From assembly GCF_000001735.4 (NCBI RefSeq), contig NC_003074.8, positions 17,429,261 through 17,493,260 of the forward strand: 64,000 nucleotides of DNA. The letters run 5' to 3'. The notes beneath the pieces are model-generated. The model had not been told where the DNA came from and searched no databases. It worked only from the letters and a program-made list of their open reading frames with translations. The stretch is from Arabidopsis thaliana. Lineage: Eukaryota > Streptophyta > Magnoliopsida > Brassicales > Brassicaceae. Positions within the stretch are counted from its first letter, which is position 1; every line of letters starts with the position of its first letter. A program made the position numbers and the translations under genes. Of this stretch, positions 363 to 8,042 are shown piece after piece.

Positions 363-873
363 GAACTTTTATCACTTATGCCACTTTTTTTAAAAAACTG
401 ATCTGGACTGCCATCAGTGAATGTCACCGAAAATGTGATATACCAGTTGTACCCTTAATGAGTTGATTAAAAAAATAAAAAAGAAATTCAAAAGCTAAAT
501 AAAGAAAATCGAGATTCTCCGTTCTCTCTTCTTCGTCGTCGTGTTCTTCTTCTTGCGTCGACGTTCATCTTCTTCGTCGGCCACCATCGATTCCGGCCGC
601 CGCCGACTTGAAATCCGTCGTAAAAGGCAACGAATTAGGTCAGTTTCTTCTCATATTTCCTTTGACATTGGTGCATTGTGATTTTAGATTAGGATTTTGA
701 ATTATATATAATTCCCAGATTCAATTTGATAGTTTGATGATTGGTTTGCAAAGTAAAGAGTAATCGATTAGAGGTTGCCGAAACGTTATTTGAGGTGATG
801 AGCAAAGGAATGTAGGTTGAATGTGAGTTGAATTTGAATTCCGAGATTTCATATTAAAGATTTGGGGGGTTTC

Positions 874-3099
874 ATGTTAGTTGACAAGATCATGAAGAAG
901 GTTGCGATTGATGAAGCTTCTGTGAAGTTGAAACTGAGTTACAATCTGTCTAAAGTTAGGAGAGAGACATATATTGTAGATGATGAGGATGTCTTTATAT
1001 TTTTAACAGAATCTGATGAAGAGAGTCGGATTCCTGTTTTGCATGTGGAGAAATTAAATGGTATAGGAGTTGAGAGGAGAGAGGAAATTTCTGTACCGGA
1101 GCGTCGAAGTTCAGTTGGTGTAAATGTAAGAAAAGATGATGTTTTAAATGAAGTATGTGAGATGGTGCATGATGGATATGATAATGATGTGAATGATTGT
1201 GAGAATGTAGTAGGTACGGAGATCGTGGCTGTCGAAAGGCCGATGGAAAGGCCGGTGAATTCTGTTGAGGAAGAAGATGAGGATGATAGGATTGATTATG
1301 ATGATATTCACAATATTCCACGAAGTGTAGAAGTTACTCCGCAGGTTATAGAATGGGATGATGGTACGGGTATTGAAATTGGTCAAGAATTTTGTTCAAG
1401 GGAGGCTGTGTGGGAATTGGTTAACAGAGCTGCAAAGCAAGAAGTTTTTGGAGTCTATACTATTAAGTCAGACCCGTTGAGACTTATGCTACGATGCCGC
1501 CAAGCTTCTAAAGGGTGTACTTGGTATCTAAGAGTTGCGAGAACTAAGAAATCTCATTTTTGGAGTGTTAGAGTGCATAGAAAGATGCATACATGCTCTC
1601 GGAGTGTTGAGACTACAAGCAACAGTATACAGCGAGGCACACCAAGATTGATAGCATCGGTTTTGCATTGTGACTATCCCGGAAATTTAGAGACCCCAAC
1701 TCCAAACAACATTATGTCGATTGTAAGAGGAAGACTTGGGGTGCATTGTTCATACTCCACTGCCTTAAGAGGCAAAATGCTACATGTTAGTGATGTGCGA
1801 GGGACTCCGGAAAGAAGCTACACGATGTTATTTTCTTATCTTTACATGTTAGAGAAGGTAAATCCAGGGACAGTAACTTATGTGGAGTTGGAAGGAGAGA
1901 AAAAGTTCAAGTACCTCTTCATTGCATTAGGCGCTTGCATTGAAGGTTTTAGGACAATGCGGAAAGTGATAGTTGTGGATGCAACTCATCTTAAAACTGT
2001 GTATGGTGGGATGTTGGTTATTGCAACAGCACAAGATCCTAATCATCATCATTATCCACTTGCGTTTGGAATCATTGATAGCGAGAATGATGTAAGTTGG
2101 ATTTGGTTCTTAGAAAAGCTGAAAACTGTATATTCGGATGTTCCCGGATTGGTCTTTATTAGTGATAGGCATCAAAGCATAAAGAAGGTTGTCAAGACGG
2201 TGTACCCGAATGCGCTTCATGCAGCTTGTATATGGCATTTGTGTCAAAACATGAGAGATCGTGTGAAAATTGACAAGGATGGAGCTGCTGTCAAGTTCAG
2301 GGATTGTGCTCATGCATATACTGAGAGTGAGTTCGAGAAAGAGTTTGGTCATTTTACAAGTTTATGGCCTAAAGCTGCTGACTTTCTTGTGAAAGTAGGG
2401 TTTGAGAAATGGTCGAGGTGCCATTTTAAAGGAGACAAGTATAACATTGACACTAGTAATTCTGCGGAGTCCATTAATGGTGTGTTTAAAAAAGCGAGAA
2501 AATATCACTTGTTACCAATGATTGATGTGATGATTTCTAAGTTTTCTGAATGGTTCAACGAGCATAGGCAAGATTCAAGTTCTTGTCCAATCACAGCACA
2601 AGTTGTGCCTACTGTCGAGAACATATTGCACATTAGATGTCCAATTGCAGCCAAATTAACTGTGTTTGAGCTTAACAGTTACAACCAAGAATACAACGTG
2701 ATTGATCTCAACTCGGTAAGTTTTCTGGTGGATTTGAAAATGAAAAGTTGTTCATGCAAATGTTTTGATATAGACAAGATCCCGTGTGTCCATGCTATGG
2801 CCGCAGCCAGGCACCTCGCCCGCAAGGAAGGGAGAAATGCGAATACAACCATCTACGGACTCTGCTCTGTGTATTACTTGATAGAGAGTTGGGCATTGGC
2901 CTATTACCGGACGTTGTATGTAGTCCCACATGAGTCGGTTTGGGTTCTTCCTGCCCATATTAAAGAGTTAGTTGCCTTTCCGCCGGAATACACACCAAAA
3001 GGACCAGGACGAAATCAAGAGAAGCGGTTTCCATCAGTTGGTGAAGCGCGAAAGAGGAGAATAAATTTGGAGGCTTGGCTGCAGCCTGAGGAAGATTAA
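874..3099 (+). CDS. MULE transposase (vanA-type)
   Basis: DDE transposase of the Mutator/VANDAL superfamily, a single open frame of 741 aa from the ATG at 874 (an ATG at 892 is also possible if a leader intron ends near 880). Numbering from four codons upstream of the 874 ATG, it shows an N-terminal acidic PB1-like region (about 10-60) and a MuDR-type zinc DNA-binding domain (about 165-250, C212/C219 and HTC at 243-245). The MULE catalytic core follows, with Asp373 in VVDATH, Asp435 in FISDRH and Glu536 in SNSAESING, then a SWIM zinc finger (C632-x-C634, C642-x-H644) and a basic C-terminus. All expected catalytic residues are present and no internal stop occurs. It probably binds the element ends and catalyses cut-and-paste transposition. 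It lies upstream of the GRF gene on the same strand. Confidence 0.92.
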   Translation: MLVDKIMKKVAIDEASVKLKLSYNLSKVRRETYIVDDEDVFIFLTESDEESRIPVLHVEKLNGIGVERREEISVPERRSSVGVNVRKDDVLNEVCEMVHDGYDNDVNDCENVVGTEIVAVERPMERPVNSVEEEDEDDRIDYDDIHNIPRSVEVTPQVIEWDDGTGIEIGQEFCSREAVWELVNRAAKQEVFGVYTIKSDPLRLMLRCRQASKGCTWYLRVARTKKSHFWSVRVHRKMHTCSRSVETTSNSIQRGTPRLIASVLHCDYPGNLETPTPNNIMSIVRGRLGVHCSYSTALRGKMLHVSDVRGTPERSYTMLFSYLYMLEKVNPGTVTYVELEGEKKFKYLFIALGACIEGFRTMRKVIVVDATHLKTVYGGMLVIATAQDPNHHHYPLAFGIIDSENDVSWIWFLEKLKTVYSDVPGLVFISDRHQSIKKVVKTVYPNALHAACIWHLCQNMRDRVKIDKDGAAVKFRDCAHAYTESEFEKEFGHFTSLWPKAADFLVKVGFEKWSRCHFKGDKYNIDTSNSAESINGVFKKARKYHLLPMIDVMISKFSEWFNEHRQDSSSCPITAQVVPTVENILHIRCPIAAKLTVFELNSYNQEYNVIDLNSVSFLVDLKMKSCSCKCFDIDKIPCVHAMAAARHLARKEGRNANTTIYGLCSVYYLIESWALAYYRTLYVVPHESVWVLPAHIKELVAFPPEYTPKGPGRNQEKRFPSVGEARKRRINLEAWLQPEED

Positions 3100-3231
3100 G
3101 TCTAATGCAGAAAAGGTTAAACCGGAACAACCTGGCCAACTGCAGAAAGGGTTCAACCAATACAACTAAGTTCATTTGTATTTGTATTATATTATTTGTA
3201 AGTGTGATGTACTATGTTTTATGTTTTCGTA

Positions 3232-3700
3232 TTTGTATTGAATTCTTTGCAAGTTTATTGAATTATTTGCAAGTTTAATGTATTTTTTTAAGTTCAACTG
3301 AGACAACTGATATATGTATCTGTATTTTAGGATTAACAAAATGATAAAATAATTCTCAATATTTTCAGCTATTATCAACATCTAAACATTGAATAAATCC
3401 AAAATATGATATTACAACATTGTTATTACTAAACTTGATCATAAACTGGTTTCTTAATAAATCACCTATGTATAACAAGGAACATATAGTTCATGATTGT
3501 CCAATGTACATACGTTATGTATGAAAACAGATATTTACTAAATATGATTCTATCAAAACTTATTAAAATCCATTAATATGTTAAAACTTATGGGACCAAC
3601 TAAAAAAATGAGTTGGTTTTTCAGATTCAACTTCAAAAACACAAAATTTAGAATAGTTCAACTGTTTGTGATTCCGGCCAACTGTACATATACATACAAC
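3232..3700 (+). repeat. Scattered CAACTG motifs downstream of the VANDAL transposase
   Basis: The spacer between the transposase and the GRF gene contains CAACTG at 3295-3300, 3304-3309 (arranged CAACTGAGACAACTG), 3659-3664 and 3679-3684 (as CCGGCCAACTG). Another GGCCAACTG lies at 3134-3142. They match the core of the 53-bp tandem array at 4815-5061, so they look like dispersed or ancestral copies of the same short motif. The rest of the spacer is AT-rich and I see no gene in it. Confidence 0.55.
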
Positions 3701-4034
3701 TATGTGTATTCTCAATATTCTAATAAATAATTTTAAAAAAAAAATAGACCCCACGAAGTCGGGTTCACACTACGATTATTGCGTTCACACTACAAAGTTT
3801 CTACCTATTTATTCTCGTTCATCTCTCTTTCTCTCTCTCTCTTCTATTTCACTTCTCTCGTTCTTCTCTCTTCTTCCTCTCTCTCGTTCTTCTCTCTTCT
3901 TCCTTCCCAACATCGGCGACGACAACTGAAAATAGGGTTCCCATTATTCGCCGCCGCCGACGACAACAACAACAACCAAGGTATTACATGCACTGGAGTT
4001 CTTCCTCTCTCTCGTTCTTCTCTCTTCTTCTAAA

Positions 4035-4159
4035 GGGTTTCTAGCCGCCGTAATTAGTAGATCTAAGGTTTCTTACGGGTTTTTAGCCGCCATAATTAGT
4101 AAATCTAGGGTTTCTTACGGGTTTCTAGCCGCCGTAATTAGTAAATCTAGGGTTTATAG
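4035..4159 (+). repeat. 42-bp tandem repeat, three copies, in the vanB leader intron
   Basis: Copies at 4035-4076, 4077-4118 and 4119-4159, each starting GGGTTT(C/T)TAGCCGCC and containing TAATTAGTA(A/G)ATCTA. The CT-rich leader sequence CTCTCGTTCTTCTCTCTTCT is also duplicated around 3853-3900 and 4007-4030, so the whole leader looks locally amplified. Confidence 0.8.
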
Positions 4160-4198
4160 CGTTCATGATTCATATCTCTTTCTTTCTCTGTTCTGTAG

Positions 4199-4706
4199 AT
4201 GCCCTATAGTTACTCTCAACCATCCACGTCCGAAGCTAGTTGGAATAGTGGAAAGGCGAATGCCGATGCAAATTGGGGGGTTCCAGAAAAATGTTTTTGT
4301 GGTAAGCCTGTAAAACTTGAAGTGTGCAAAACTGGTTACAGGCAAGGCGACAGAGTCTACAAATGCCCAATGCTTAAAGTAAGTTATTGTGTTTTCATTT
4401 CATTGGAACAACAAAGTACAAGTGAATTATATTTATGAAGTCTTCTCTCTTTCGCAGGCTGAAGAGTACGAGTCCCGAAACCACCTTATTCAGTGGTGGG
4501 ATCAGGCGGTAACTGAGGAGCTTGAGAAGGTAAATCACAAACTTGATTCCACACTAAGACATGGACAACTAGCATGCAATCATGCTTTGGAGTCCATCCG
4601 GGAAACTATTCATCTCATGCAAGGCGAAATTGAAACCCTTAAAGAAAGGTTACTCGCCAAAGAAGTCGAGATTGATAGGCTTAAGGCATTACTTTCTACA
4701 TGGTGA
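4199..4706 (+). CDS. GRF-type zinc-finger coiled-coil protein (probably vanB)
   Basis: Two coding exons, 4199-4378 and 4458-4706, joined GT-AG, give 142 aa. The start ATG directly follows a CTGTAG acceptor, so an untranslated leader exon ends near 3980 (donor AAG|GTATTA) and a leader intron covers 3981-4198. Residues about 32-75 form a GRF zinc finger (CFCG...C...GRxY-like VYKCP...W), a nucleic-acid-binding fold. Residues about 80-142 are a heptad-rich coiled coil (LEKVNHKL...IETLKERLL). It lies on the transposase strand within the VANDAL element, in the place expected for vanB, whose function I do not know. No frame damage is visible. The zf-GRF assignment is by motif only. Confidence 0.75.
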
Positions 4707-4814
4707 TTATGATGTGATTTATGTTATTGAGGATGGTGTATGGCATTTGAACTTAAATATGTTATGTTTCGGGATTTTATGTAATATTTGAACCTAATTA
4801 GACATGTATTTACC

Positions 4815-5061
4815 TATTTTAAGTTATGTGTATTGACCGGCCAACTGGGACAACTTAGCTACTCTTGTATTTTAAGTTATGTGTATTGACCGGCCAAATG
4901 GGACAACTTAGCTACTCTTGTATTTTAAGTTATGTGTATTGACCGGCCAACTGGGACAACTTAGCTACTCTTGTATTTTAAGTTATGTGTATTGACCGGC
5001 CAACTGGGACAACTTAGCTACTCTTGTATTATTGACCGGCCAACCGGGACAACTTAGCCAA
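4815..5061 (+). repeat. 53-bp tandem array with CAACTGGGACAAC core (candidate VANC target)
   Basis: Four almost identical 53-bp units (4815-4867, 4868-4920, 4921-4973, 4974-5026) plus a truncated unit to about 5061. Each unit contains GACCGGCCAACTGGGACAAC followed by TTAGCTACTCTTG; unit 2 has AAATGG for AACTGG and the last has AACCGG. The array lies between the 3' ends of the convergent vanB and DUF1985 genes. The core motif recurs elsewhere in the element. Known VANDAL anti-silencing proteins act through short motifs repeated in non-coding parts of their own element. Confidence 0.85.
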
Positions 5062-5232
5062 ACGTTTTGATTTTAATAAAATCCTAAAACACATAAACCA
5101 TTTCAGAAAATAAGTTTGTCCTCTACACATAAACTACGCATAACATTCCCAAATACACAAAAAGAAAGTCTTATTTTGACAGACACCTAAGAGTCCACAC
5201 ACACACATAAGCAAGAAAGAATTTTCAAAGTC

Positions 5233-7652
5233 CTAATTCTTCTGTCTCTTCCTCGTTTGCTTCCCCTCAGCTGTAAACTCTTCCCCCTTATACTTGAAAG
5301 GTTTCCTTCCACGTTTTTCCCCAGATTCCAGAGTAGGACCAACATGCTTTCTCTTCTTCTTCGATATCTGCTTCTTCTTATCCTCTTCATCGGACTCATC
5401 GCTGCCATCACCTACAAAAATATGTAACCAAACATCTAAGAACTATTGTGAAAGCATCACTACACAAAAGTTCAACAAAAACTCACTTAGAGACTCAATA
5501 GTTGGAGGTGCTGGGTCACGGATTCCACTGTGAATAACCAAGGCCTTGCTCTGAGTATCCCTTGGCTGATAAGACAGTGGCACAAAATCAGCAGCTGAAC
5601 CAGGACGTATATCTTCATAACGGGCTTTTTCTGCCTCTTTCTCAAGCTGATCTGCCACATATTCCTCTATTCCTTGTACTCTCACACAAATCCGCTTGAT
5701 TTCGCTATCCATCACAGCAAGCTTGTCCGTGAGCTTGTCAAATCCTCTCTCCATAGCTTCCTTGAACGAGAGAATCGATGTCCCAGGGATTTCAGGTTCA
5801 GGTACAGCTGGAACATCATCAACAGTTTCAATACGTCTACCATCAATGTCTGCTTGGTAGAGACTACGCCAGAAAATCTTCTTTTTCTCTACGATAAGCC
5901 TCTCTCTCCAACTATCAACAATTGGATCGATATATCCAATACCATCATCAACATGCTTCTCTACAACGCGTGACAACATTTTTCTCTCATCCATATCAGG
6001 TTCCAAGATGCTTGAAATATCCTGTCAAGTAAACATATATTTCAAACACCACAAAGATTATAAACATAGATTTCAAGAGAACAAAGCTAACCGTTATATC
6101 TCCAAGTGCTTCATTTATTTCTTCCAAACTAAATCCCTTCATGCAACTTTCATTGAACTTGTGCTTGCACATTCTTGAACATTCCTTGTTTGCAGGTACA
6201 GCTTCTCTAAATCTCTTCCCAAGCTGCGGAATGCACTCAAATGCCAGAATCTAGACACAAAAACATAAAAGTAAATGCAAGTTCACAATAACAAAATCTA
6301 GCCACTCATATAATTTACTCGACTACTTACCTTAAGTGGAGTAATAAATCCATAAAAAGCAGTATGTGTCTTGGGTTTCACCACACCTTTCATGTTCTTC
6401 ATTACTCTCTGCACCCCTTCCATACACTGCTCAAAGGAAAAACGTCCCCACGGGAATGTCTCACAAGCTCTGACATTATCCACAATCCTAAGAAGCAACT
6501 CCTCTATCTTCGAATCCCCTTTAGAATCAGCTTTCATAACCTTAGCTAAGAATAACAGAATTGCCAACTTCAACCTAGCAGTAGACTTCTCACTCTTAAA
6601 CTCTTCCAGCTTCTCTTCCACGTCTTTAATCTTGATGTCCTCAGTCCTCTTAAACAACTTCTCAACAAACTTCAAACTGCCTAAAGTCTTATTGTTTTTT
6701 GGGTACTCACGGCAGTTCAAACCGGTCAACAATGCATGCTCTCTAATTGAGTACCTTATAGGTACTCCATTGACAACAAACCAACACTCTCTCGCCAATT
6801 CTGTCTTAGCCGTGCGAACCATAAGCATCCACATGCCTTGAATCATGTGATTGGGCTCCTTAGGCATGTGGAATATGTGCTTAAATTGGTCATGATTCCT
6901 AAACCACTTCAGTTCTTCATCCAAAGTCTCTATAAATTCCACTGTTTGTACCAACTGACACCTCGTTCCTATCTTACACACCTTCGTGTAGGTAGTTGGA
7001 TCAAAGTACATAACTTCTGGCGGCAATGGTTGATTATCATCATCATCATCATCATCATCCTGCATATTCTGCGGCAGGTTATCATCATCACCATCATGCA
7101 TATTCTGCGGCAGGTTATCATCATCACCATCATCCTGCATATTCAATTCAAAATACTTTCAATTCCACATTAACTACCTAGTTGTACTACTTGTTCCTGA
7201 ATGACCATTCACAAATTTACGACCTAGTTGTACTACTTGTTTTATCTGAAGCAGCATTCACAAATCCAATCATTTACCAATGCATAATATCCTAAAACGA
7301 GCCTAATACAAAAAATAACGGTCTTCTATCATACCTTATTTGCTCCATCATCATGTTGAACAACTGCATTCGTTGCTTCTTCTTCTTCTGCACAAGAATC
7401 GGCATTTGGGTCTGAAAGATCGTCAATTGACTCCCATGCGACGGCGTTTGAATTACCCAAATCGGCGGCGTCACAACCGCCGGTTGTAGGCTGAATTTCT
7501 CCGGCTTCCTCTTCTGTTGTAAGAAGCTCTGCGCCTTCTTCATCTCTTTGGGGAATCTCGGCGGCTGTCTCTTCGACTGATGGAGGAATTTCGCCGGTCG
7601 TTTCAACCCTAGTTGATTCATATTCTCCAGATGAGTCTTTTACTCTAGCCAT
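5233..7652 (-). CDS. DUF1985 protein, likely VANC-type anti-silencing factor
   Basis: Five exons on the minus strand: 7335-7652, 6331-7134, 6092-6250, 5487-6021 and 5233-5411, all GT-AG and in frame, giving 664 aa from MARVKDSSGEY. The N-terminus is acidic. Exon 2 starts with a short repeated acidic block (DDDNLPQNM repeated) and an Asp run, then a DUF1985-like domain at about residues 180-320 (FKHIF, RECWFVVNG, YSIREHALLTGL). The C-terminus is Lys/Arg-rich and probably nuclear. DUF1985 proteins occur in Arabidopsis MULEs; in VANDAL21 the vanC product removes DNA methylation from its own family by binding short repeated motifs. That role here is inferred from domain and position. I see no Ulp1 protease domain, which other DUF1985 elements may carry. 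Intron 1 holds two copies of CTAGTTGTACTACTTG (near 7180 and 7215). Confidence 0.8.
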
Positions 7653-7833
7653 ATGAAAGAGACAAAGACGAACGAAAACGGAGAAGAAAGAAGAATAGAA
7701 GAGATTGATTTTTCCGGTGAAATTGGTGTCGTCGGAGACGAGAGAAGACGACGACGGAGAGAAGAGGAAGAAGTCGAGAAGTGAAAAGGGGGAAGAACTT
7801 AGGTTTTTTCTGTAGTTTCTAGGGTAAATAATA

Positions 7834-7840
7834 CAACTGG
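7834..7840 (+). promoter_or_regulatory. CAACTGG motif near the right end of the VANDAL element
   Basis: CAACTGG within TACAACTGGGCC, in the upstream region of the DUF1985 gene. A complementary CCAGTTG lies near the left end at 443-449, so both outer non-coding regions carry the array motif. Confidence 0.5.
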
Positions 7841-8033
7841 GCCGAGTATTTACATTTTTCTTTGGGCCCGAGTCCAACAAATTAAGTTTTCTTGTAGTTT
7901 TCGTGGTTTCGCAAGGGTTTTTCGTCCTTTCCTCAATTTTCGATTTTAATAAAAATCAATAATATTATTCCAAACATAAGAATGGCACGAGTGATTATTT
8001 CTTCTCCAATAATGGCATAAGAGGTGAGCTCTC

Positions 8034-8042
8034 CGGAGAAGA
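8034..8042. repeat. Right target-site duplication of the VANDAL element
   Basis: CGGAGAAGA, identical to 354-362. Sequence from 8043 onward was presumably continuous with the SELT leader and promoter before insertion. Confidence 0.8.

Follow-up and report, generated by a model that had tools for sequence, protein, structure and literature searches.

We read a 53-bp tandem array inside a probable VANDAL element of Arabidopsis thaliana as clustered targets of the VANC6 type (AGTTGTCC, the CC-type motif), and the element that carries it has a VANC gene of its own that is apparently intact as far as its sequence goes; we put the probability of this reading at about 0.8. The motifs, their clustering and the presence of the VANC gene are observed, in one copy of the element within one 64-kb stretch of DNA (the whole of what was analysed, 64,000 nucleotides, called here the window). 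The label VANC6-type is set by the target motif, while the VANC protein itself was compared with the VANC21 chain. The element, its genes and the array are given below in window positions; the exon bounds of the VANC and small gene models were picked from splice signals, with no transcript.

363 to 8033, forward strand: probable whole VANDAL-type Mutator-like element, 7671 bp, about 12% of the window.
892 to 3099, forward strand: VANA-like MULE transposase in one open exon (Pfam Plant_all_beta 1.9e-36, MULE 3.7e-21, SWIM 1.9e-9).
4199 to 4706, forward strand: small gene in the VANB position, 142 aa, two-exon model (4199-4378, 4458-4706).
4815 to 5061, no strand assigned: 53-bp tandem array of 5 units, from TRF and core matches, every unit with GGACAACT.
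5233 (about) to 7652, reverse strand: VANC-like gene, five-exon model, 671 aa, with DUF1985 and DUF287.

VANDAL elements make a 9-bp target site duplication, and their terminal inverted repeats are weak or absent. Here a 9-bp direct repeat, CGGAGAAGA, stands on both flanks (354-362 and 8034-8042), an inverted CTTATGCCA is common to both ends, and 24 of the 40 terminal bases are alike, which is a weak similarity; the ends are probable rather than proven, since 257 of 20,000 random block pairs (41 start positions per block) also shared some 9-mer. No match to the element was found by blastn in window positions 8034-64000 at E 1e-3. We take the gene that adjoins the element to be an ASN1-like asparagine synthetase gene and the one at the far end of the window to be SMC2-like, and these neighbours fit a place on chromosome 3; a literature search with the gene numbers AT3G47310/320/330 found no mention of them.

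The first gene, with its MULE and SWIM domains, encodes the kind of transposase expected of a VANDAL Mutator-like element, and the small gene product matches no Pfam family at its cut-off. The VANC model (exons 7652-7335, 7155-6331, 6250-6092, 6021-5487, and 5411 to the stop) has no internal stops, and an alternative acceptor for the last exon would give 679 aa instead of 671. Its domains are those of a VANC protein (DUF1985 1.3e-27, DUF287 6.2e-24), together with a basic C-terminal tail and an acidic repeated stretch, and residues 150-496, the part with DUF1985 and DUF287, match the VANC21 chain (PDB 9lnj, 9lnk) in sequence at E 6.1e-79; the literature search found no paper clearly about that structure. 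An alignment-free structure prediction for the DUF1985 exon was of low quality (mean pLDDT 44). The acidic repeated peptide lies in the N-terminal part of the model and is encoded by a tandem repeat with a period of about 36 bp (2.7 copies, 7042-7144), and repeated peptides are known in variable parts of VANC proteins (PMC5735166). Scans of the DUF1985 exon against viral contigs and of the transposase against genome contigs found no relatives, and are uninformative on plants because these collections consist of viruses or prokaryotes.

The array is as the first-pass annotation had it: TRF reports a period of 53, 4.1 copies and 98% matches over 4815-5030, units 1 to 4 follow one another at 53-bp spacing, and unit 5, whose core comes 40 bp after that of unit 4, carries the array on to 5061. 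In the gene models the small gene and the VANC gene converge, with the array lying between their 3' ends. All five units read GGGACAACTT, so that AGTTGTCC stands on the minus strand in each of them, and the part of the unit kept throughout, GGACAACT, is this same motif read from the other strand. The string CCGGCCAACTGGGACAAC is exact in three units, with CCAAATGG in its place in unit 2 and CCAACCGG in unit 5, and CAACTG is intact in 3 of 5, against 5 of 5 for AGTTGTCC. The VANC6 motifs described by Hosaka et al. (2017, PMC5735166) are AGTTGTCC, the CC-type, and AGTTGTAC, the AC-type. What is kept in every unit is therefore a published motif, and the separate protein-motif pair of undescribed specificity that had been proposed for this array is not supported. 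The motif is not shared by all the tandem repeats of the element: a second array just upstream of the small gene (42 bp, 3 copies, 4028-4155) is without the AGTTG core.

Outside the array, related sites occur along the element; they are listed here with the array copies.

4848 to 5054, reverse strand: five CC-type VANC6 motifs AGTTGTCC in the array (starts 4848, 4901, 4954, 5007, 5047).
4563 to 4570, reverse strand: a sixth copy of AGTTGTCC, exonic, in the small gene.
444 to 452, forward strand: CAGTTGTAC, an AC-type motif near the left end.
3160 to 3168, reverse strand: TAGTTGTAT.
3694 to 3702, reverse strand: TAGTTGTAT.
7179 to 7233, forward strand: two TAGTTGTAC sites 46 bp apart, a short duplication in intron 1 of the VANC model.
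7831 to 7839, reverse strand: CAGTTGTAT, near the right end.
3295 to 3308, reverse strand: AGTTGTCTCAGTTG, two AGTTG cores 9 bp apart, one base off AGTTGTCCCAGTTG.

Counted as AGTTGTMC, a motif fixed beforehand by PMC5735166, the VANC6 target occurs 9 times in the element and twice in the other 56 kb of the window. Eight of the nine copies are non-coding by the gene models, and they lie partly in tandem repeats, with five in the 53-bp array and two in the intron duplication; the AC-type AGTTGTAC starts at 445, 7180 and 7226. None of 500 element shuffles reached nine, and the maximum in 97 overlapping control stretches was one. Raw element counts of AGTTGTMC, CAACTG and YAGTATTAY were made with provisional element bounds (365-8000), and the shuffles, the control stretches and the 6-mer scan with provisional exon bounds; for the collapsed counts the main counts were redone with bounds 363-8033 and the final exons. 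In these the array counts as a single locus, since its copies are not independent, and so does the intron pair, which leaves 4 loci of AGTTGTMC against 0.27 expected (P = 2e-4).

That slippage made an array which just happens to contain the motif is hardly credible to us, even granting that the array units amount to one event, that the motif has 8 bases only and that AGTTGTCC by itself collapses to 2 loci against 0.14 (P = 0.0085), one of the two being exonic. Chance would leave the collapsed AGTTGTMC excess to be accounted for, as well as the separate AC-type and AC-like sites near both ends, between the genes and in the VANC intron. It would also have to produce YAGTTGTAY, of which the element has six copies, all non-coding, against one outside, and which collapses to 5 loci against 0.14 with a P value of 3.5e-7 that is optimistic, since this 9-mer was chosen after the sites had been seen, guided by the VANC21 motif. 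None of the other 15 YAGTNNTAY words occurs in the element.

YAGTTGTAY is the VANC21 motif YAGTATTAY with its two central bases changed. YAGTATTAY itself has no copy in the element and two elsewhere in the window, and a VANC21-type target is thereby ruled out here. A pyrimidine is also common before the cores in general: C or T precedes AGTTG in 14 of 18 non-array, non-coding cores of the element (both intron copies included) and in 46 of 131 outside it (P = 7e-4), a rule that the array breaks, its AGTTGTCC being preceded by A. Between the transposase and the small gene (3100-4200), 10 of 11 AGTTG cores are on the minus strand, as they are in the array (P = 0.012), and VANC21 motifs are likewise arrayed in the same orientation (PMC5735166).

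The hexamer CAACTG, which had been taken for the amplified word, reads CAGTTG on the other strand and shares the AGTTG core with the VANC6 motif. Of its 27 copies in the window, 15 lie within the element and 12 in the remaining 56 kb, a share that for 12% of the window has a binomial P of 6e-8 (4e-6 without the array); over the whole window the 27 copies compare with 31.4 expected from shuffles, so that the excess is the element's own. Element shuffles have a mean of 4.4 with none of 500 reaching 15, and 97 overlapping control stretches of element length have a maximum of 4. The recurrences listed in the first-pass annotation stand at 3295, 3304, 3659, 3679 and 7834, and as CCAGTTG at 443, but the one placed at 3139 is at 3137; to these are added a non-coding copy at 3923 and four that are coding by the gene models (1112, 3035, 6952 and 7361). 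An unbiased 6-mer scan of the non-coding part of the element, with the array left out, puts CAACTG in third place, after the GA-repeat words GAGAGA and AGAGAG, with 8 copies where 0.63 are expected (P = 3.4e-7), whereas AGTTGT is outside the top 14. Collapsed, CAGTTG has 13 loci against 1.6 (P = 2e-8), a stronger excess than that of collapsed AGTTGTMC, and at 3137, 3295, 3659 and 3679 the AGTTG core is not extended to AGTTGT. The published VANC6 motif thus does not fully explain the CAGTTG excess. As an undescribed main recognition word CAACTG was dropped, since it is the published motif that all five units preserve; as an addition to that motif it is kept alive, because CAGTTG is enriched beyond AGTTGT.

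Two explanations start from this word. Host R2R3-MYB proteins recognise a core CNGTTR, which CAACTG fits, and the CAACTG copies could be MYB sites used for transcription of the element, with the array a neutral minisatellite, as the 42-bp repeat without an AGTTG core might suggest. We consider this very improbable: by the gene models the array lies between the 3' ends of convergent genes and not in a promoter, and AGTTGTMC, YAGTTGTAY and the match to the published VANC6 motif would be left unexplained. The second supposes that the VANC encoded here has come, by drift, to recognise either CAGTTG or a composite AGTTG-N4-AGTTG, a specificity related to that of VANC6 but separate from it; we regard this as unlikely, though several observations point that way. 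Besides the 13 collapsed CAGTTG loci, the base before AGTTG is C in 8 of the element's 18 non-coding cores beyond the array, and in 12 of 131 cores outside the element (P = 5e-4); the 9-bp distance between cores recurs in 4 distinct pairs away from the array (one partner mismatch allowed) where 1.04 are expected (P = 0.02); and CAGTTGGCC occurs at 3134, at 3676 and in three array units and nowhere else in the window. The array itself argues against a shift to CAGTTG, having CAACTG broken in 2 of 5 units and AGTTGTCC kept in all, and the 9-bp spacing, although it has the lowest P of 36 spacings (0.007 before the two sides of one pair were merged), would not survive a correction for all of them if it had been picked freely instead of being dictated by the array.

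The composite site deserves a description of its own. Two AGTTG cores 9 bp apart (AGTTGTCCCAGTTG) occur in three array units, and the window has 6 hits to AGTTGTCCCAGTTG at up to two mismatches. Five of them are the array units (3 exact, 2 one base off); the sixth, also one base off, is 3295-3308, and beside it lies a tandem repeat of 20 bp (2.7 copies, 3236-3288). It is conceivable, if rather improbable, that the recognition unit of VANC in this lineage is a two-core AGTTG-N4-AGTTG, both cores in the same orientation and about one helical turn apart (AGTTGTCYCAGTTG), bound by VANC as a tandem pair, in which case single-core motifs would be half of the site and the second core the place where related VANDAL families drift apart. 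The 9-bp-spaced pair is a weak lead and falls short of a result. Were the two-core reading true, it would add to what is understood of VANC target choice, a matter left to future studies in the Discussion of PMC5735166, and the solved VANC21 structure would offer a means of examining it.

On the preferred reading, that of a VANC6-type target cluster, the candidate sites are the array and, besides it, the AC-type and AC-like sites (AGTTGTAC, YAGTTGTAY) that lie close to each end, in intergenic DNA and in intron 1 of the VANC gene. The element's own VANC, or that of a near relative, would bind these clustered sites, supposing that the protein of this copy recognises the motif; binding would strip DNA methylation from the element, and this removal would allow its genes to be expressed. 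The copy may be active now or may have been so formerly. For the known proteins, VANC21 binds its own motif in vivo and in vitro, and the VANC6 motifs were identified via methylation loss, a motif-dense region being bound by VANC6 in vitro (PMC5735166). The motif alone is no proof that the partner protein is the VANC encoded by the element itself, since AT9TSD1, which is unrelated to VANDAL, also has VANC6 motifs (PMC5735166), and a 2025 paper suggests that VANC6 targets direct repeats in a Pack-type element (PMC12312487).

The element can be set beside two known systems: (i) With VANDAL6 and VANC6, as presented in PMC5735166, it shares AGTTGTCC and AGTTGTAC in non-coding DNA, partly as tandem repeats, a VANC with DUF1985 and DUF287, and a VANA transposase; of the second AGTTG core, 9 bp away in the array, we found no mention in the motif account of that paper. 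VANC6 affects VANDAL6, 7, 8 and 17 (Hosaka et al. 2017, PMC5735166). (ii) With VANDAL21 (Hi) and VANC21 it shares the gene set, motif clusters of one orientation in non-coding DNA, introns included, and a VANC model whose sequence matches the solved VANC21 chain (9lnj), but YAGTATTAY is absent and its counterpart 9-mer is YAGTTGTAY. The joint presence of a VANC-like gene and an amplified short non-coding word, proposed from the first, is thus borne out, and the architecture is as in VANDAL21 and VANDAL6. Taken together, the findings suggest one more copy of an already known self-protection system, not a new system: the published motif reads the array, and a new protein-target pair is unnecessary.
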